Origin: Larkinella rosea
GTDB lineage: Bacteria; Bacteroidota; Bacteroidia; Cytophagales; Spirosomataceae
Length of the DNA: 64,000 nucleotides
Direction of reading: 5' to 3'
NCBI RefSeq assembly: GCF_003858635.1
Contig: NZ_RQJO01000007.1
Span: 683,941-747,940 of the forward strand
The notes beneath the pieces are model-generated. The model saw nothing but the letters and a program-made list of their open reading frames with translations, ran no database searches and was not told where the DNA came from. Position numbers and translations under genes: made by a program. How positions within the stretch are numbered: position 1 is the stretch's first letter; every line of letters starts with the position of its first letter. Of the stretch, positions 38,253 through 61,644 are shown one piece after another.

Positions 38253-38336
38253 GCCGGGATGGCGGAATCGGTAGACGCGTTGGTCTCAAACACCAATGTC
38301 TGCAAGGGCATGCCGGTTCGAGTCCGGCTCCCGGTA
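38253..38336 (+). tRNA. tRNA-Leu (anticodon CAA)
   Basis: An 84-nt cloverleaf. The acceptor GCCGGGA pairs with TCCCGGT (one G-U), the D-arm includes AATCGGTAGACG, the anticodon stem TTGGT/ACCAA encloses loop CTCAAAC with CAA at 38287-38289, there is a long class II variable arm, and the T-loop is GGTTCGAGTCC. No CCA is encoded. It reads UUG codons and marks the border between GC-rich core DNA and the AT-rich island. Confidence 0.95.
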
Positions 38337-38340
38337 CAAC

Positions 38341-38553: not shown

Positions 38554-39480
38554 ATGAAAGTTGGAGACTTAAACTTCTTTGCAGAGCTGCTCACCACTGA
38601 GGGATACAATAAATACTACCAGCGATTTGAATGGGCAGTAGAGTCTGAATGTGAGAATCTCGGAATTCACATAGTTGAACAGAACCAGCCAAAGGAATTT
38701 ATACTTGTTCTGTCAACTATAGATGATAATGATGGCAATATTATGCCCATACATGTCCATTATTATTTTAAGGATTTTATTGCAAACCAATCTAAAATTA
38801 TTGAAAACAAACTATTAGCTACTTTCGAAGTGGAATTAATCGCTTTACCAAATGACCAAATTGCATTTCAGGTGCCTTTTTTAATGGGTTATACCGCCCA
38901 TTTAATTTTCCATTCCGAGCAAAGTATATTAAGTTATAATCGCTTTCTTTTACAATCATTAATTCGCCTTTACGAGCGTTTACAGGAGATACAACTTGAT
39001 TATCTTCCGAAATTAGTACCATCACCTGAAACCCTGGAAAATTTTGTTGATCGAAATAAAGAATTAGATCAACTGAATAAGGTGGAAATTCCTAAAGCTT
39101 TAAGTTATATTAAAGGGCAGGTGAGAGAATCGACTTACGAAGATTTCATTGAAAAACTCTACATTACTCTTCGTAGCCAAGCATTAATAGAGTTCAAAAC
39201 CAGCAAGCCAAACTTCCGACATTTGTTTGTTGGCCCGGTAAAAGAAAAAATCGTTTGGTTAGGTAAAAATAGCCAATTAAAATATTTAATCCGAGGACTC
39301 GTAAAACGGAATTTCATTAAGGCAGACAGTGGTTATGAAATTACAGCTGCTTGCTTTAAACGACCCAATCAAGATCTGCTTGCATACAATATAGATCATA
39401 CAGGCCTGCCCAAGCTTAAAGACCAGAAAGACGAAATTGATAATATCTTAAAGGCAATTGAAGGTTCTATTCTACTATAA
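38554..39480 (+). CDS. Island hypothetical protein with RteC-like C-terminal pattern
   Basis: A 308-residue soluble protein. The N-terminal two thirds are unrecognised. The C-terminal stretch KIVWLGKNSQLKYLIRGLVKRNFI followed by YEITAACFKR resembles the end of RteC-like and related Bacteroidota mobile-element proteins, where a helix pair precedes a small winged-helix-like domain; this is a tentative match. A clear AGGAGA precedes the ATG by a few bases, unusual for this phylum. It is first of the island genes next to the tRNA, suggesting a regulatory or mobility-control role. Confidence 0.6.
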   Translation: MKVGDLNFFAELLTTEGYNKYYQRFEWAVESECENLGIHIVEQNQPKEFILVLSTIDDNDGNIMPIHVHYYFKDFIANQSKIIENKLLATFEVELIALPNDQIAFQVPFLMGYTAHLIFHSEQSILSYNRFLLQSLIRLYERLQEIQLDYLPKLVPSPETLENFVDRNKELDQLNKVEIPKALSYIKGQVRESTYEDFIEKLYITLRSQALIEFKTSKPNFRHLFVGPVKEKIVWLGKNSQLKYLIRGLVKRNFIKADSGYEITAACFKRPNQDLLAYNIDHTGLPKLKDQKDEIDNILKAIEGSILL

Positions 39481-39698: not shown

Positions 39699-39992
39699 AT
39701 GAATGTAGAGTTAGTAACCAAGACCGAACTAGAAGGTCTTGTTCGGAACCTGGAGACACTTATCCGGCGAGCCACACGAAACACCCATGGCGGTGAACAA
39801 GCAGTGTACGACAACGAGGCCTTATGCAAGAAGCTCAAATTGAGCAAACGAACCCTCCAGAACTGGCGGGATGAAGGATTGATCGAGTTCAGTCAGATCG
39901 GACACAAAATCTATTACACCGAGAAGGCAGTAAATCAGATGCTGGAAAAAAGTAAGGTTAAATGTTTCAACAACAATTACAATGGACGCTGA
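39699..39992 (+). CDS. Excisionase/MerR-like HTH DNA-binding protein
   Basis: A 97-residue protein with a helical N-terminus and a winged HTH of the excisionase (HTH_17) kind: DNEALCKKLKLSKRTLQNWRDEGLIEFSQIGHKIYYTEKAVNQML. Such proteins bind DNA near attachment sites or replication origins of Bacteroidota mobile elements. Its end overlaps the start of the DUF3987 gene by 11 bases, so the two are translationally coupled. It is the first gene of the candidate replication module. Confidence 0.85.
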   Translation: MNVELVTKTELEGLVRNLETLIRRATRNTHGGEQAVYDNEALCKKLKLSKRTLQNWRDEGLIEFSQIGHKIYYTEKAVNQMLEKSKVKCFNNNYNGR

Positions 39993-41283
39993 GAATACAC
40001 CATTTATACCGGCGTCTGTATACGACCGGTTACCTCGCTTTCTGAAAAATTTATGCGAGGAGTTTAAAGACAACAGAGAACGGGATGTTTTCCTGACCTC
40101 TGTTTTAGGGATTTTGAGTGGATGCTTCGATACCGTTTCAGGCAGTTATGCTGGCAATCGAGTGCATGCAAGTCTCTACGCGTTTGTAATAGCTCCACCA
40201 GCCAGCGGAAAAGGGAGCATGTCTTGGGCTAAACATTTGGCTAATCCGCTTCATAATCAAAGGAAGCAGGCAGGTTCAGAAGCTGTAGAAACCGTAAAGG
40301 GTCATGGGGTTCTTGACTTCTTTGATGATCAGTCGCGTCTGCTATATATTCCTGCTAACATAAGTGCAGCCGCGTTAATTGACCAGCTAAATAAAAACGG
40401 TGGAAACGGTATTATTTGCGAAACAGAAGCTGACACATTAGCAACAACCTTAACACAAGAGTGGGGTAAGATTTCAGATATTCTTCGGAAAGCCTTCCAC
40501 CATGAAACTGTTTCCTTGCGTAGGAAAACAAAAAATGAGTATGTAGAGATTAATAATCCACGCTTGGCAATGGTACTGACTGGGACGCCAGGACAGCTTA
40601 AGGGAGTTATACCATCGACCGAGAATGGGTTGTTTAGTCGATTTGTATTTTACATCTACCACGACGTTCCAGAGTGGAGAAAAGTATCCCCTAGTAATCA
40701 CAAGACAGATCGGGAGGAGATGTTTGAGAAATTCGGGAAATGGTTGGCTGATCGAGTTACCCAATTAGGAAAAGGGCAGGTTGAATTCCAGTTGACTGAT
40801 GGACAATGGGAAGCACTTGATGCGCACTTCAAGGGGCTGTTAGAAAACACGCAAAAGGAGTTAGGGGCATATGCCAGTGCAATTGCAACTCGATTAGGCT
40901 TAATTACTTTCCGATTGGCAATGGTATTGAGCGCCACCCGTCGATTGGAGCGAGTCAACAAAGATGGCCATGTGCTAGATGGGACTATCGAATGTATTGA
41001 TGCCGATTTCGATAGTGCCATGGAGTTGTCGGATATATTTTATCGACACGCCCTAGCTACCTATGACATGGTACCTAGCGGGGATGTGACTGACCTTACA
41101 GGGTCAGAAAGAAAACTTTATAATGCACTGCCAGATGAAGCTTGGTTCACTCGAAATAAAGCCGTTTCAAATGGTGTAGAGGCTGGCATGCCATTAAGAA
41201 CCGGCTATGCTTGCCTGCATCTGTTAGTTAAAAAAGGGTATCTGGAGCGCGATAAAGAGGGGCTTTACCGCAAAATCAAATAG
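39982..41283 (+). CDS. DUF3987 P-loop protein (putative mobile-element helicase/primase-associated ATPase)
   Basis: A 433-residue protein with a Walker A-like APPASGKGS at residues 71-79, a Walker B-like GIICETEAD near residue 140 and a sensor-like LAMVLTGTPGQL. The C-terminal ~60 residues look like a winged helix (LYNALPDEAWFTRNKAVSNGVEAG...LLVKKGYLERD). DUF3987 proteins in Bacteroidota plasmids, phages and conjugative elements are associated with replication primases or helicases; direct biochemistry is scarce. This copy lacks the extra N-terminal primase domain found in longer forms. It lies between the HTH gene and the polymerase-like gene. Confidence 0.82.
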   Translation: MDAENTPFIPASVYDRLPRFLKNLCEEFKDNRERDVFLTSVLGILSGCFDTVSGSYAGNRVHASLYAFVIAPPASGKGSMSWAKHLANPLHNQRKQAGSEAVETVKGHGVLDFFDDQSRLLYIPANISAAALIDQLNKNGGNGIICETEADTLATTLTQEWGKISDILRKAFHHETVSLRRKTKNEYVEINNPRLAMVLTGTPGQLKGVIPSTENGLFSRFVFYIYHDVPEWRKVSPSNHKTDREEMFEKFGKWLADRVTQLGKGQVEFQLTDGQWEALDAHFKGLLENTQKELGAYASAIATRLGLITFRLAMVLSATRRLERVNKDGHVLDGTIECIDADFDSAMELSDIFYRHALATYDMVPSGDVTDLTGSERKLYNALPDEAWFTRNKAVSNGVEAGMPLRTGYACLHLLVKKGYLERDKEGLYRKIK

Positions 41284-41381
41284 GTGATAATTCGACCAGT
41301 CGTGTAAAAAGATGGAAAGGCATTACTGTTTTGCAGCCTTTGCAAAAAGTGCACGGCTGGTTTTTTAAATTCAAAAACAAA

Positions 41382-42905
41382 ATGTTAAAGAAAACAATCC
41401 TACTTCCAGAAAATTTTGACTTGGAGCAACTTCTAATCGACCATCCACCACATGTCCGACTACGGATCGAAAAACTTAAATATATCCTTGGACTCATCAA
41501 TGAGCTCCCAGCATACGACCATCGGTTTTTTGAAGGCCAAAGGGATGAAGCGTTGTATGTGCCAATAAATTCCCAAATCATTAAGAGTAAGGTTTGGAAT
41601 TATCAAGAATACCTGGGTTATCTTGTGGAGGTAGGTGTGTTAGAATGCAATGGGGTTTACTTCCCTGGTTTTTCTTCGAAAGGGTATCGTTTTACGGAGC
41701 ATTATCAGATTAAGACTATCAGAGATTCTGTCAGCAATCCAAAGCTGATAGCGAAAACAAAGAGCCAAAAACAAAAGGAGGCTGCTGCGTTGGCCATGTA
41801 CCCTAATTTAATCCATCATTTTGACGGCTTGGAAATTGACCTTGAAAGAGCACAAGGCTATCTTCAACACGTATATGAGGAAGAATCCCAATCAGCTGAA
41901 AAAAAGATCAGTCGTAGGGCTGCTTCTCGCCATAGCGCTGCTTTGATCAACGTTAATAAGCTGGTAGAAAAGTCCTTTCACTTCAGCATTGACAACAATG
42001 GGCATCGCCTACACACTACACTGACAAACTTGAATAAGGCTTTGCGTCAGTTTTTATCTTATCAAGGTGAAAAACTGGTGGCATTTGACTTGAGCAATTC
42101 ACAGCCATTTTTGGCCCAAGTTTTGTTTAATAAGTCATTTTATGAACCTACTGAAGATTGCTTAACTTTGACATTATCTTCTTTGCCAAAAGAGACACAG
42201 CAGTTAATCAATGAAAATTTAAAAGCGCGAATAGGCGAGTATATACTTTCAAATACTAAAACTAGTAAGTATAGTATAAACTCTTCTACCCCTCTATCCA
42301 CTTGCCCCCTTATGTGCGGGAATTTAGAATTTAATGATCAAGCAGATGGAAGAGTAGAAGTTGTTCGAGAAGCAGAAGATTTCCAAATTAAATTGTTACA
42401 GAATCAGGAGTTAGAAAAATATTTATCTTTCTTAAATGGTGGGCTGTTTTATGAACAATTAGGAAAAGAAATAAGTCAACGCACTGGACGCGGTTACAGA
42501 GACCGGGATCAGTTAAAACAAGTGATTAGTACTGTTCTATTTTCCAGCAACGACGAGAAATTTCCTCCGATAGTAAACCGAAAACGGGTCTTCAAAGAAG
42601 TGTTTCCTTGGATAGCTGGTTTGTTTGAACTGTTAAAGTCTGATGATCATAGAACCTTGGCATTACTCTTACAGACGATTGAGTCTGAAATCTTTTTGAA
42701 CCGCATTGCTGGACGTATTAGTCAGGAAATGCCTGAAGTGCCCTTATTTTCTCTCCATGATAGTCTAGTGACGACTGGAGAGAATGAAGGTTACTTAAGC
42801 CAGGTAATGAAAGAGGAGATTGAAAGAGCAATTGGAGCCGTTCCTGACCTAAAAAGAGAGGAATGGAGTACCGATGGTATAGAAGTAGTCGTAAAATCTC
42901 TATAA
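41382..42905 (+). CDS. Candidate single-subunit polymerase (PolA/T7-RNAP-like) of a mobile element
   Basis: A 507-residue protein (a TTG at 41331 could add 17 residues). I see what looks like a full right-hand polymerase core: an upstream GHRLHTTLTNL block like the GRLSS..PNLQN of PolA (Arg209); motif A as FDLSNSQP with Asp236; motif B as R375-x3-K379-x7-F387, the exact spacing of the R-x3-K-x7-Y helix; and motif C as SLHDSLVTT with His459-Asp460. A helix LLLQTIESEIF between B and C mirrors the PolA QGTAAD region. No exonuclease domain. Whether it makes DNA, RNA or primers cannot be told. It follows HTH and DUF3987 genes, and its stop abuts an IS end. Confidence 0.6.
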   Translation: MLKKTILLPENFDLEQLLIDHPPHVRLRIEKLKYILGLINELPAYDHRFFEGQRDEALYVPINSQIIKSKVWNYQEYLGYLVEVGVLECNGVYFPGFSSKGYRFTEHYQIKTIRDSVSNPKLIAKTKSQKQKEAAALAMYPNLIHHFDGLEIDLERAQGYLQHVYEEESQSAEKKISRRAASRHSAALINVNKLVEKSFHFSIDNNGHRLHTTLTNLNKALRQFLSYQGEKLVAFDLSNSQPFLAQVLFNKSFYEPTEDCLTLTLSSLPKETQQLINENLKARIGEYILSNTKTSKYSINSSTPLSTCPLMCGNLEFNDQADGRVEVVREAEDFQIKLLQNQELEKYLSFLNGGLFYEQLGKEISQRTGRGYRDRDQLKQVISTVLFSSNDEKFPPIVNRKRVFKEVFPWIAGLFELLKSDDHRTLALLLQTIESEIFLNRIAGRISQEMPEVPLFSLHDSLVTTGENEGYLSQVMKEEIERAIGAVPDLKREEWSTDGIEVVVKSL

Positions 42906-44158
42906 TGTAGTAGCCACTACTTGATCTGACAGTAAGGGGAAAAATTAACTGTCGGCTGTCGCCTTCATCACTGACCAGTTGAATTGATGAGATGTAGTCT
43001 GATCCACTGTTTCCTGTTCGGCTTCCGCTTGTACAGAAGGGGAAAAAAGTGGGTTTGCCAACTGCTCCAGCAACTTTTCTCGGGCTAAGTCAACGGTGTC
43101 CATAAACGTCTGCATTGGGGTTTTACCAAAGCAATGCTTACCGGAATGTGTTCGTTGCTGGTTATAGTGGTTCATCCACAAATCTACATCCCGCTGGAGT
43201 TGTTCCAAACTGGTATAGAGTTTTTTACGAAAAGCGATGGCATAAAATTCGTCTTGAATCGTCTTATGAAAACGTTCACAAATACCGTTGGTCTGCGGGC
43301 TTTTGGCCTTAGTTTTCGAGTGATCGACATCTTCGAGGGCTAAAAACAGTTGGTATTCATGTTGTTCCCGGTTGCCGCAATATTCCGTTCCCCGGTCGGT
43401 CAATACCCGTAATAGCCGCAGTTGATGCTGTTCATAGAAAGGGATGACCCGATCATTCAACAGATCAGCCGCTACTAAAGCGTTCTTGCGATCCTAGATC
43501 TTGATAAAGGCCACTTTAGCGTAGGTGTCAATAAAGGTTTGCTGGTAGATATGACCTACCCCCTTGATATTGCCCACATAATAGGTGTCCTGAGCCCCCA
43601 AATAGCCTGGGTGGTGTGTTTCGATCTCACCCATCGCTTGTTTTTCCAGCTTGGCCTTTTCCAAAGCGGCTACCTGCTCCTCCGTCAGAATGATGCCTTC
43701 CTGAGCCACTTTGGCCTCCAGGGCTTTCAATCGTTTGGAAAACGTTTCTACATCATGCCGCAGCCAAATGCTGCGAACACCACCAGGTGAAATCACGATA
43801 GCTTGTTTCTTCAACTCATTTGATACCCGGAGCTGCCCCAAAGCGGGTTGTTCGATAGCCATCTTCAAAACGGCCTGTTCAATCGACTCGTCCACGCGAT
43901 TTTTCGGACATGGCTTACGGCGACTCATTTCCTGAAGTGCCATTTCACCACCTTGGTCATAGAGTTCTTTGAAGCGATAGAAGCTATCTCGTGAGTAGCC
44001 CATGATGCGGCAGGCTTTCGAGACGTTCTGAAGCTGGTCGGCCAAGTTGAGAATACCTAGCTTATTCTTGATAATCTTCTGTTGTGTTGTCATTGGCTTA
44101 ATCGTTGGTTTAAAGTTAAAAAACTTGTAAACTGTCAGATTAAGTCTTGACTACTTCA
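42906..44158 (-). mobile_element. IS481-like insertion sequence
   Basis: About 1.25 kb. The ends are inverted repeats of roughly 28 bases with about 22 or 23 matches (left 42906-42933, right 44131-44158; both contain ATCTGACAGT in the inward part) and finish in TG...CA. It carries one transposase gene on the minus strand. I saw no clear target-site duplication. Confidence 0.75.
42945..44093 (-). pseudogene. IS481-type DDE transposase interrupted by TAG
   Basis: The gene would encode about 382 residues: an N-terminal HTH (KACRIMGYSRDSFYRFKELY), then an rve-type DDE core with Asp in GAQDTYYVG, Asp in LTDRGTEYCG and Glu in GICERFHKT. A single in-frame TAG at 43494-43496 lies between FIKI and DRKNAL, where a Tyr codon is expected (KLYDRK in relatives). 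Both halves remain in one frame with no shift, so the damage is recent or the codon is read through. Unless suppressed, the element is immobile. Confidence 0.85.
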
Positions 44159-45029: not shown

Positions 45030-45914
45030 TTAAAATAGCACAAACTCATTTATTGTCTGCACCACTACTTTATCAGATTGTCCCTCAATTACCGACTCAA
45101 TGGAATCTGGTACATTAGCCAACAGATCATACCCAGTTAATCGCTCGACTTCATCAACACTAACCCGGTAAGTACTCCAAGACTTTTCCCCAGCGGCATT
45201 GTTGTTCGGTATCCAGATTGCAATAACCCTTGTCTGAGTATTTATACGGTTGAGGTCGTTACTTCCTACTGGAATCACAACGATAACCTTCCAAAGGACA
45301 GAAGGAACAGTTACTTTATTTCCAGAAATGGTGCTTGCTGTGCCGTTGTCTCCGGTACCTCCTTTGCCATGCGTTCCGGCAATAATATATGCTTCGTTAC
45401 CATCGGAGATTAGTTTACGGACATAACCTTCCAATTGATTCCAGCTATCCCGATTTAGTTTAGGTGCTTGGGGAACAATGTTGGTCATAAAGAACGTGGA
45501 GCGATTTTCCTCAACGGTTGAATCTCTATCATCACTTGGACATAAATGACCCCGATCAAAACCTGAGTTTGTATAATCATCATGCCGAACCTGGTACCAT
45601 CCATTCGGTAGTGTCTGATCAGGAATGAAGAGCCCCGAATACCGTTTAGCAGATCCTTTCCAAGCAGATGACAGATGCCAAGAACACCAATTTGCAATAT
45701 CGTTGCTTCGATTATAGCTCAAGGAGTAAGCTGATCTTTCAACGAGGTAATTATTTTCTTGACTCATGTTGGCACCGCTGGGATTCCCAAGTGCCATATT
45801 GGCGTCGCGAGTAGGCAACTTAGAATCTGGTTCCGGCTGATCGGCTGTTCTACAGGAGGTAAAGGTATTGAGTAAGAATAAGACTGAAAAAGTGTAAATG
45901 AGAATCTGATTCAT
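45030..45914 (-). CDS. NUC1-family DNA/RNA non-specific endonuclease lipoprotein
   Basis: A 294-residue protein starting [21 protein letters not shown], a lipoprotein signal with Cys21 as the acylated residue; an upstream ATG at 46010 gives no signal. The nuclease motif [13 protein letters not shown] puts the general base at His123; the metal-binding Asn is in [16 protein letters not shown]. It probably degrades extracellular DNA/RNA at the cell surface or in the periplasm. As island cargo it could supply nucleotides or act against competing DNA. Confidence 0.88.
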
Positions 45915-46107
45915 CTTTGCAAGACAAGAATTTTGGCGACAAATAAATGCATAAAGTAGGCTATTGGTGTTCATCTTTAAAATTGCAATAAGCCTTTTTC
46001 GACTTGTCATTCAAAAACGTATATTTACCACACCAACTAAACTTTATCGCTAATAGACGAAAAAAGACATTTCTGACAACATATAACTAGTGTTGAGCTA
46101 AGTTCCT

Positions 46108-59822: not shown

Positions 59823-60680
59823 ATGCATTTACGCTATGCTGAACGCAGACAGGCACGAATACGGGTACTGCTGCAAGGAGCTTCGGGCTCTGGAAAAACC
59901 TATTCATCATTACTGTTGGCTTATGGACTTACGGGAAGCTGGTCGAGCATCGCTATTATCGACACCGAGAATAAGTCGGCTGATCTCTTTGAACATCTGG
60001 GTAAGTATCGTGTACTGATTCTAGAGCCACCGTATACACCTGAGCGTTATATCGAAGCTTTGAAAATGTGCGAGCTGGCAGGGGTGCAGGTGATCATTAT
60101 TGATTCCCTTTCGCACGAGTGGCAATGCCTGCTGGATGAACACGCTGCCATGTCAGGTAACTCGTACACTAATTGGGGCAAGTTAACTCCTCGGCATGAT
60201 TCTCTTGTGAACGCTCTATTGCAAAGTAACTGCCACCTGATTGCCACTGTCAGGGCTAAACAAGATTACGTTTTGGTCGAGAAAAACAACAAGCAGATAC
60301 CTGAAAAAGTAGGCATGAAAGGAATTACTCGTGATGGAATGGATTATGAATTCACGTTGGTCTTTGAGTTGGATAATCGTCATTATGCCAGAGCCACCAA
60401 AGATCGAACAGGTCTTTTTACCGACAAGCCTGATTTCTCCATTTCACCGAAGACTGGTCAGCAGATTCTTCGTTGGTGCCAAGAAGGAACAACTCAAGAA
60501 CAGGTAGAAGCGATGATTAAAACGGCAAAGGATACAATCCGACTAAAGGATTTGTACGATTTATATCCGGAATTCCGGGAGGCTTTAATGCCCTTATTTA
60601 CTGAACGCAAAAACGAACTTCAATTACTCTCATTACCCAAACACCCCAAATATTATGGTAACTCAAATCATGCCGCTTGA
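59823..60680 (+). CDS. Phage-type P-loop ATPase (Sak4-like)
   Basis: A 285-residue RecA-like ATPase. Walker A GASGSGKT is at residues 19-26 and Walker B VIIIDSLSHEW (Asp94) follows; RAKQDYVLVEKNNKQIPEKVG and the late YEFTLVFELDNRHYARATKDRTG are typical of the AAA_24 phage family. Related Sak4 proteins anneal or pair single-stranded DNA in phage recombination. Its 3' end overlaps the DUF3871 gene by 26 bases, showing a coupled pair. A strong terminator follows the pair. Confidence 0.82.
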   Translation: MHLRYAERRQARIRVLLQGASGSGKTYSSLLLAYGLTGSWSSIAIIDTENKSADLFEHLGKYRVLILEPPYTPERYIEALKMCELAGVQVIIIDSLSHEWQCLLDEHAAMSGNSYTNWGKLTPRHDSLVNALLQSNCHLIATVRAKQDYVLVEKNNKQIPEKVGMKGITRDGMDYEFTLVFELDNRHYARATKDRTGLFTDKPDFSISPKTGQQILRWCQEGTTQEQVEAMIKTAKDTIRLKDLYDLYPEFREALMPLFTERKNELQLLSLPKHPKYYGNSNHAA

Positions 60681-61644
60681 AGAAAGCTACGAAGCCGTTG
60701 TTATTGAACCAAGCCCTTCATCTGAGAGGGCTTTTTTATTGGCTAATACTTTGCCCTCTACCTTGAGGGAAATGCAGGAGAAGCACATTATCCCTGTTTA
60801 CAGTAAGGACAACGAACCATTGATTTCCCACAGTGATTTCATCGAGTCGGCCCTGGAAACTGTCGAGCGATTGTTCCCTCACGAAAGTATCCTGGAACCA
60901 TCAATTCGGGTATCACATCCGATCAAAGGCCGTATACCATCGGCACGTAACAAACCAGCGAAAGACCTGGAGGAATGGGAGAGGACGTTGTATTATGAAC
61001 GAGCTGCCTTCGTGATTGAAATACCATCAATACAAGAAATGGTAGGCGACAATCAACTTTCTTTAACTATTGGTGGAGTCAAGGCGTACAACCACGATAG
61101 CTTGCACCAGAAAAAAGGTGTTGATGAGCATTTCAAAGTCTTTATAGGCTTTCAAAATCTGGTTTGTACCAACCTCTGCGTTTCGACAGATGGTTACTTG
61201 GCTGACTTACGAGTGAAGTCGGTGGCTCAACTAATTACGGCAATTGAAGACTTGATTCGTCGGTATCAGCTTAACAAGCACTTGTCGCTAATGAGGCAAT
61301 TGACGGAATATTACCTGACCGAGCAACAGTTCGCCCAGTTAATTGGCCGATGTCGTTTGTACAATTTCCTTCCACAAGCACAAAAGCGGGAGATTGCCCC
61401 GCTTCTGATAACTGATCAGCAGATCAGTATGATAGCCAGAGATTACTACCGGGATCATTCGTTTTGCCGTGAAGATGATGGACGGATCAGTTTATGGAAG
61501 CTCTACAATCTTTTCACAGGTGCATTAAAGAGCAGTTACATTGATACATTTCTAGATAGGAATGTAAATTCACTTGATTTTACAGAGGGTATTTTGCAGA
61601 CATTGCAAGGTTTGCACACTTCAGAAGGATGGTTTCTAGAATAG
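60655..61644 (+). CDS. DUF3871-family protein
   Basis: A 329-residue soluble protein of the Bacteroidota phage/plasmid family DUF3871. Recognisable blocks are HPIKGRIPSARNKPAKDLEEWERTLYYERAAF, LTIGGVKAYNHDSLHQKKG, KVFIGFQNLVCTNLCVSTDG and ISMIARDYYRDHSF. The function is unknown; family genes sit near recombination and replication genes, as here beside the Sak4-like ATPase. Met6 at 60670 is an alternative start that would shorten the overlap with the ATPase gene to 11 bases. Confidence 0.8.
   Translation: MVTQIMPLEESYEAVVIEPSPSSERAFLLANTLPSTLREMQEKHIIPVYSKDNEPLISHSDFIESALETVERLFPHESILEPSIRVSHPIKGRIPSARNKPAKDLEEWERTLYYERAAFVIEIPSIQEMVGDNQLSLTIGGVKAYNHDSLHQKKGVDEHFKVFIGFQNLVCTNLCVSTDGYLADLRVKSVAQLITAIEDLIRRYQLNKHLSLMRQLTEYYLTEQQFAQLIGRCRLYNFLPQAQKREIAPLLITDQQISMIARDYYRDHSFCREDDGRISLWKLYNLFTGALKSSYIDTFLDRNVNSLDFTEGILQTLQGLHTSEGWFLE

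Follow-up and report, generated by a model that had tools for sequence, protein, structure and literature searches.

A probable TV-Pol-family polymerase with A-family features in a tRNA-Leu integrative element of Larkinella rosea

We describe a 64,000-nucleotide stretch of the Larkinella rosea genome (assembly GCF_003858635.1, contig NZ_RQJO01000007.1, positions 683,941 to 747,940 of the forward strand), referred to here as the window; the genome around it measures 8.17 Mb. The window holds the left part of an integrative element of 46,074 bp, inserted at a tRNA-Leu gene. The gene order reads tRNA, a 308-amino-acid (aa) protein, a helix-turn-helix (HTH) protein, a DUF3987 protein, a polymerase, a transposase insertion, cargo, and an integrase, with the polymerase gene and the integrase at opposite ends of the element (Table 1). 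We focus on the polymerase gene, an intact open reading frame (ORF). Its product is, in all likelihood, a polymerase; we consider it probable that it is a minimal enzyme of the A family (Pol I-like), in which no exonuclease is detectable, that it belongs to the transposon-virus polymerases (TV-Pols), and that it copies the tyrosine-recombinase element in which it resides.

Table 1. Features of the element and of the polymerase gene. Positions count from the first letter of the window; those marked "extended" continue the same numbering beyond its end.
Feature	Position	Strand	Basis or remark
Putative TV-Pol-family polymerase gene	41382..42905	+	ATG to stop, 507 aa; the ATG sits inside TTG-start ORF 41331-42905 (+), TTG start possible at 41331 (ORF list)
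Predicted N-terminal winged-helix-like domain, residues 29-117	41466..41732	+	DSSP of AF2 model
Residues 205-219 (NNGHRLHTTLTNLNK), near-invariant R209	41994..42038	+	aligned near TGRLSS/PNLQN of Pol I
Motif A, residues 232-242, D236 and Q241	42075..42107	+	Q241 presumably at the Pol I E710 position
Motif B helix, residues 375-387, R375, K379, F387	42504..42542	+	model and alignment
Helix, residues 425-449, Q431 and E434 (LLQxxES block)	42654..42728	+	model and alignment
Motif C hairpin, residues 456-465, H459, D460, S461	42747..42776	+	model and alignment
tRNA-Leu (CAA), integration target	38253..38337	+	its 3' end recurs as the attachment repeat
Left attachment repeat, 24 bp of tRNA-Leu 3' end	38316..38339	+	second copy at 84390-84413 (extended), beyond the window
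308-aa protein, no known family, first element gene	38554..39480	+	relatives confined to L046 and L047 among 97 loci
HTH_17 excisionase-like DNA-binding protein	39699..39992	+	Pfam, PHROGs
DUF3987 helicase-like protein	39982..41283	+	Pfam PF13148 E 2.5e-54; PHROG DNA helicase 2.4e-7, DNA primase 4.7e-7
AAA_24 ATPase and DUF3871 pair	59823..61644	+	same element
Tyrosine integrase, 414 aa, just inside far repeat	82973-84214 (extended)	-	repeat search and Pfam

The initial annotation, made from the letters alone, had picked out five blocks and read three of them as motifs A, B, and C of a single-subunit polymerase. All five are present in the protein, in the order and with the residue numbers given there (ORF list, alignments): GHRLHTTLTNL, FDLSNSQP with D236, RDQLKQVISTVLF with R375, K379, and F387 of motif B, LLLQTIESEIF, and SLHDSLVTT with H459 and D460. 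These blocks are conserved in an alignment of the window polymerase with 31 relatives, gathered in two whole-protein searches, which were positive for 11 of 39 near genomes and for 28 of 291 genomes of the order (host genome counted both times). All 32 rows keep R209, D236, Y357, and E434; 31 keep Q241, K379, Q431, and D460; and 30 keep H459. Among the exceptions, one sequence stops before the HD motif, one has YD, and one has Q in place of K379. No motif was used in these searches, and the motifs therefore stand above chance.

Wider sampling leads to the same residues. A 31-row profile (A1) run across the phylum found matches in 19 of 296 genomes, host included, and pattern scans retrieved 109 relatives among 178 stretches of genome contigs (the best 80 were retained) and 17 among 81 stretches of viral contigs. 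A 63-row alignment, A3, comprises the window polymerase and 62 of 81 proteins (425-620 aa, above 225 bits), thinned at 80% identity. Nine of its columns are invariant: R209, D236, Q241, Y357, K379, Q431, E434, H459, and D460; A3 is biased for R209, D236, and Q241, since the patterns behind it contain the R209 stretch or the D236 and Q241 stretches. Our widest alignment has 112 rows including the window polymerase, 43 of them from pattern-free whole-genome searches. Counts among the 112 and among the 43 are, respectively, 111 and 43 for R209, 110 and 42 for D236, 108 and 40 for Q241 (with H in 3 rows each time), 110 and 43 for Y357, 108 and 41 for K379, 105 and 39 for Q431, 111 and 43 for E434, 106 and 39 for H459, and 109 and 42 for D460. 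In this manner, the conservation of Asp236 and Asp460, on which the initial annotation had staked its reading, is borne out. Its R-x3-K-x7-Y/F pattern for motif B is too strict at R375: 51 rows of A3 have R there and 10 have K, and in the 112 rows R occurs 87 times and K 11 times. Judging by these alignments, motif B is better written [RK]-x3-K-x7-[FY].

Such conservation bears on a further alternative, in which the protein has lost catalysis and survives as a relic, or uses its palm fold for regulation. Several relatives within the genus are indeed damaged, one (L004) with one TGA and three (L006, L007, L019) partial, and yet each catalytic column holds in over 90% of the 112 rows and the window copy is intact; we regard this alternative as very improbable.

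The predicted structure points in the same direction as the motifs. An AlphaFold2 (AF2) model built from A3 has a mean predicted local distance difference test score (pLDDT) of 89.8 and a predicted TM-score of 0.87, with residues 295-321 below pLDDT 50. From the N-terminus, its elements are a domain spanning 29-117, long helices within 120-195, the motif A strand 232-237, an insert, the motif B helix 375-387, the helix 425-449, the motif C hairpin 456-465, and a closing helix and strand. D236 sits on the strand 232-237 and H459-D460 between strands 456-458 and 461-465, positions that fit a palm in the model; the assignment of motifs A, B, and C thus agrees both with the conserved columns and with their modelled placement on strand, helix, and hairpin. 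Helices 154-169 and 174-195, which precede the hairpin in the AF2 model and in a model of the core alone, would by their place in this order be the thumb. The N-terminal domain (helices 29-45, 55-58, 64-70, and 74-83, then strands 87-93, 100-104, and 112-117 by DSSP) has the element order of a winged helix, and we tentatively name it as such.

A Foldseek search of the Protein Data Bank (PDB) with the full model returned 48 matches at E<=0.001, of which 46 are A-family DNA polymerases and two are mitochondrial RNA polymerases (best E 4e-5). The core-only model (residues 119-507, pLDDT 89.5) returned 54; of the 50 listed, 49 are A-family DNA polymerases and the other is a mitochondrial RNA polymerase. 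The predicted model thereby recovers enzymes with the palm, fingers, and thumb arrangement that the initial annotation had expected. Among viral structures, the best fold matches are a 409-aa protein (target TM-score 0.80) and, from an uncultured marine phage, a 'Putative DNA polymerase I'.

The initial annotation had placed the protein near both family A DNA polymerases and T7-like RNA polymerases, and profile comparisons support the first kinship more than the second. The 112-row profile matches a merged Pol I and T7 gp5 profile at E 1.1e-4 in local and 1.3e-7 in global mode (best of 30 shuffles 0.16 and 0.41), versus 0.018 and 0.77 for T7 RNA polymerase (best of 30 shuffles 0.057 and 0.24), whose set of 19 close-knit sequences has less power as a probe than that of Pol I. 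A profile of the core alone matches merged Pol I and gp5 at E 0.0013 local and 3.1e-5 global; its controls reach 0.021 and 0.32 (best of 30 column shuffles) and 0.023 and 0.16 (best of seven unrelated families). Taken singly, Pol I and gp5 match the core locally (E 0.0024 and 0.0029) and do not match it globally (0.83 and 0.85), where only the merged pair does. A first round with close-knit profile sets was set aside as weak (Pol I 0.01, gp5 0.005, T7 RNA polymerase 0.023, best of eight unrelated families 0.031); in the blocks that those early alignments covered, the register was correct, with R209 near the TGRLSS arginine, D236 on motif A, R375 and K379 on motif B, Q431 on the glutamine of QG-x-A, and H459-D460 on HD.

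It is nevertheless conceivable that the protein is mainly a T7-like single-subunit RNA polymerase that transcribes the element's genes or makes RNA primers only. Its motif C, IHDSxxT, resembles the HDSF of T7 RNA polymerase. HD is followed by S in 58 of the 63 A3 rows, and HDS also occurs in motif C of T7 RNA polymerase. At the fifth residue after the motif A aspartate (D+5), all 63 A3 rows have Q, as does the window polymerase with Q241; from the spacing and the E. coli numbering, this is presumably the position of E710, the ribose gate of Pol I. Mitochondrial RNA polymerases appear in both fold searches, and one of the 63 A3 members touches PF00940 (E 0.0043). Against this stand the weak T7 RNA polymerase scores set beside those of Pol I and gp5, and the fourth residue after the motif B lysine, which is F in 41 of 63 A3 rows as in Pol I (F762), though S in the window polymerase. 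These comparisons establish no profile relationship to T7-like RNA polymerases (PF00940). We judge an RNA polymerase quite unlikely. Because the Pol I and gp5 scores are stronger than those of T7 RNA polymerase, the DNA polymerase side is favoured; on profile evidence, the window polymerase appears closer to A-family DNA polymerases, with a mixed set of residues. It shares motif order and fold class with Pol I and T7 gp5 (PF00476); unlike them, it is shorter, has no exonuclease that we could find, and has no Pfam match.

Within the A family, the closest description is that of the TV-Pols (transposon-virus polymerases; Iyer, Abhiman & Aravind 2008, Biol Direct 3:39, PMC2579912). These are proteins of 400-600 aa with thumb helices, a beta-hairpin arginine, a palm with two aspartates, and RxxxK fingers that hold a further conserved aspartate; a subset carries an extra N-terminal domain, predicted to be all-helical; lambda integrase, resolvase, or transposase genes are their neighbours, with links to D5 helicases; and they were proposed to serve mobile elements as primase and polymerase (PMC2579912). 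The window polymerase shares the size, the hairpin arginine, the two palm aspartates, RxxxK, and the integrase context. In the 112 rows, the arginine, the two aspartates, and the lysine are kept in 111, 110, 109, and 108, and RxxxK begins with R or K in 98. A two-helix thumb, palm, and fingers appear in the predicted model, no nuclease domain appears in the Pfam scan, and the gene lies in a mobile element with an integrase.

Profiles link the two families directly. We assembled six TV-Pols: MAP_030 of Microcystis phage LMM01, two Polaromonas plasmid proteins, an incomplete Calothrix plasmid ORF, and two ORFs of the window's phylum. MAP_030 of Ma-LMM01 is taken to be the protein meant in 2008, an assignment made from its adjacent transposase genes and its motifs. 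A3 matches the six at Prob 94.3, E 1e-7 local and 5e-11 global (best of 50 shuffles 0.16), and much of this score comes from one bridging ORF (L383, identical to L158) that was found independently by both families. With the 112-row profile, the link holds even when that ORF is left out: against the five remaining TV-Pols this profile scores Prob 91.4, E 9e-7 local, over the polymerase core, and 3.3e-10 global, with the best of 30 column shuffles at 0.36 and 0.75 (local and global) and eight unrelated control families no better than 0.11 local and 0.074 global. For this reason, we file the window polymerase, on profile similarity, as a member of a known and little-studied family; the initial annotation had suggested a possible new lineage, a suggestion that gives way to the family described in 2008 (PMC2579912). 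Bacteroidetes members named there include, among other species, Polaribacter dokdonensis, Psychroflexus torquis, and Cytophaga hutchinsonii (PMC2579912), and the supplement of that paper may already contain relatives of the window polymerase.

There are differences as well. At D+5, five of the TV-Pols in the six-member set carry H and one carries Q, versus 108 of the 112 rows with Q and 3 with H; a pattern search located Q-x-x-E in four of the TV-Pols. The N-terminal domain of the window model has three strands after four helices, in contrast to the all-helical prediction, and its residues 1-119 match the six-member set, bridging ORF included, with E 1e-5, against 0.18 for the best of 30 shuffles. 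The helicase partner of TV-Pols is D5 (PMC2579912); beside the window polymerase there is a DUF3987 protein. Viral-contig scans for further TV-Pols found 16 near copies of MAP_030 and otherwise none. A Flavobacterium phage that bears divPolA1, immuto_13-6C, was also considered; its two family-A polymerases match the family profile unconvincingly (E 0.036 and 0.021 in a two-sequence search), and it was set aside.

The element itself is bounded on both sides by the 24-bp repeat. Its length follows from the recurrence of the tRNA 3'-end repeat, and the integrase carries arm, SAM-like, and catalytic domains (Pfam) in its first 385 residues. Two further genomes of the genus carry these 24 bases a second time past the tRNA, on one contig with it; the stretches so bounded measure 32,936 and 31,035 bp and contain polymerase relatives, and tRNA-Leu(CAA) lies upstream of the polymerase in each of L046, L047, and L048. 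The initial annotation's reading of the 507-aa protein as a compact polymerase of a mobile island is supported, with no exonuclease detectable.

Neighbours at other loci were compared in a set of 97, with a callable polymerase in 96 (79 genome and 17 viral loci). A gene of the integrase cluster lies within 6 kb of the polymerase in 55 of the 96 (53/79 genome, 2/17 viral); the cluster representative, the only member scanned, is a tyrosine integrase by Pfam. Integrase, HTH, and polymerase genes are consecutive in 12 loci, an HTH cluster (representative HTH_17, E 6.2e-7) occurs in 15, DUF3871 in 19, and, by clustering, AAA_24 in 16. Directly upstream of the polymerase lie, in three loci, a cluster (f43) whose representative is a UvrD helicase (E 8.3e-64) and, in five, a cluster (f15) whose representative has a weak DEAD-box match (E 0.0027, below cut-off). 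In the window, the DUF3987 gene is directly upstream, ending 98 bp before the polymerase ATG.

From this setting, the most likely role of the protein is that of the element's own replication enzyme, and perhaps its primase; priming and copying of the excised element together with the adjacent DUF3987 helicase-like protein is the function that we find most plausible. The integrase and the 24-bp repeats suggest that the element would first be excised as a circle. The predicted winged-helix-like domain, perhaps with the upstream HTH protein, could then dock on element DNA or hold the template while the DUF3987 protein opens the duplex. The polymerase would begin strands de novo or on short primers and extend them by two-metal catalysis at D236 and D460; by analogy with Pol I, K379 and R375 would engage the incoming nucleotide, while the template-primer would fall to R209 and Q431. 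The resulting copies may raise the odds of survival and transfer of the element.

The polymerase could instead serve repair or gap filling, or make the second strand after single-stranded transfer, and not be the element's replication primase. Second-strand synthesis and defence are raised as alternatives for the related PolA-SSB primases by Rice 2023 (PMC10061031), and in the 12 loci with the integrase-HTH-polymerase array no helicase cluster was seen beside the polymerase. Adjacent helicase-like genes in several sub-lineages (DUF3987, the UvrD helicase of f43) and the synteny of TV-Pols with D5 helicases (PMC2579912) speak against such a role, which we consider unlikely.

Replication by the element's own polymerase has a parallel in CCPol. 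CCPol-MP of SCCmec primes and extends, and its primase activity has been demonstrated; its authors stated in 2020 that they knew of no other biochemically characterised TV-Pol (Bebel 2020, PMC7581432). CCPol closely resembles housekeeping Pol I: it retains both E710 and F762, and it depends on a separate OB-fold protein (Bebel 2020, PMC7581432; Rice 2023, PMC10061031). CCPol-MP/PolA-SSB of SCC elements and the window polymerase have in common a mobile-element A-family core with a helicase and a site-specific recombinase; unlike CCPol, the window polymerase has no Pfam polymerase match, has Q at D+5, and has a predicted N-terminal winged-helix-like domain. The PolA-SSB arrangement, an OB-fold single-stranded DNA-binding (SSB) protein gene between polymerase and helicase, is absent here: no ORF of at least 60 aa lies between 41283 and 41382, the interval to which the search for an SSB was confined within the element. 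A 2026 survey of bacterial polymerases (PMC12926913) distinguishes PolA1, PolA2, PolA3, and PolA1-like; 'TV-Pol' does not occur in its main text.

A further idea, which we hold only tentatively and think more doubtful than not, is that Bacteroidota TV-Pols are one-chain primase-polymerases. The winged-helix N-terminus would replace the single-stranded-DNA-binding partner of CCPol, and Gln or His at the E710 position would relax sugar choice, allowing a ribonucleotide start and deoxyribonucleotide extension at an element-specific origin. The predicted N-terminal winged helix and the Gln at the ribose-gate Glu710 position are the notable points of the family in this respect. The family is compact and occurs in many Bacteroidota records, the window polymerase has no credible match in Pfam, PHROGs, or NCBIfam, and CCPol is close to Pol I; for these reasons, the window family is a good test object for asking whether a minimal A-family core primes alone, as proposed in 2008. 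The answer bears on the divergence of DNA and RNA polymerases within the superfamily, and the family suggests what some Bacteroidota mobile elements use for self-copying.

Several observations weigh against a TV-Pol that replicates its element. Alone, the window polymerase matches no polymerase family in single-sequence library scans and finds no credible family in Pfam, PHROGs, or NCBIfam: PF00476 (DNA_pol_A) is not reached at its curated cut-off, whereas the host genome's own Pol I matches it, and PF00476 is absent among the 15 Pfam families matched by any of the 63 A3 members. Neither the aligned members nor ten distant viral relatives could be tied by family scans to a named DNA polymerase family, and neither single-sequence nor profile searches of PDB sequences returned anything relevant. 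Overall superposition is poor (TM-score by query length 0.21-0.43, root-mean-square deviation 11.7-23.5 A in the Foldseek rows listed), and these low TM-scores mean that the fold class is supported and a close superposition is not. Motif C reads HDS, the T7 RNA polymerase form, and not HDE. The link to TV-Pols weakens as the sets shrink: A3 without the bridging ORF reaches only E 0.0014 local and 1.2e-4 global, and against four or three TV-Pols 0.0024 or 0.011 local with no global match, while the 112-row profile falls to 1.1e-4 local and 1.3e-5 global with four and 0.0028 and 1.1e-6 with three. Single TV-Pol queries failed to bring back the window family: MAP_030 gave three weak matches in 395 genomes and P0001 two, one of them the bridging ORF, and the A3 model scores MAP_030 at E 1.5. 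Helicase-like neighbours occur in a minority of loci (DUF3987 in 2/97; f43 and f15 in eight more, f15 being weakly helicase-like). The H. qilianensis plasmid that carries a polymerase relative has an annotated replication initiation protein, and we have dropped the notion that the polymerase is its sole replication gene. Finally, searches with both flanks in genus genomes established no empty attachment site: the left flank is found in 9/9, and close copies of the right-flank gene are limited to G000, G001, G005, and G008, the G001 copy lying about 33 kb past the tRNA on the same contig.

Other matches and relatives complete the picture. An NCBIfam match of the window polymerase to MPN262 (E 0.0027, 16.5 bits versus a cut-off of 800), by its description a distant RNase Y homologue, was rejected as chance. 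The phage family phrog_4756, of unknown function and with no polymerase annotation, is matched by 21 of the 63 A3 members at E<=0.01 (best 1.7e-7) and by the window polymerase itself only at E 0.062; it occurs in one of 61 host-family genomes. One A3 member has an HNH/NUMOD4-type domain (Pfam NUMOD4 E 2.7e-10), and the polymerases of L123, L094, and L105 are split across two or more ORFs. Three uncultured huge-phage genomes (LR756511, LR756504, and LR745206; 595-636 kb, unannotated) hold distant relatives.

The remainder of the element is varied. Other loci, among them some from Chryseobacterium and Bacteroidales, also have the AAA_24 and DUF3871 pair near the polymerase. Just downstream of the polymerase, a transposase encoded in two ORFs has inserted (42945-44093, minus strand; rve_3, 171 aa, and HTH_29, 199 aa). 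The element also encodes a DNA/RNA non-specific endonuclease (45030-46010, minus strand; PF01223 E 2.1e-55), which ORFs close to the polymerase in L047 and L124 resemble on visual inspection. The cargo at 66717-77660 (extended numbering) encodes a Vsr endonuclease (PF03852 E 2.7e-35), a C5 cytosine methylase (PF00145 E 2.1e-45), and an HATPase_c_3 protein (E 4.7e-30), then large ORFs, and looks like a restriction or defence cluster.

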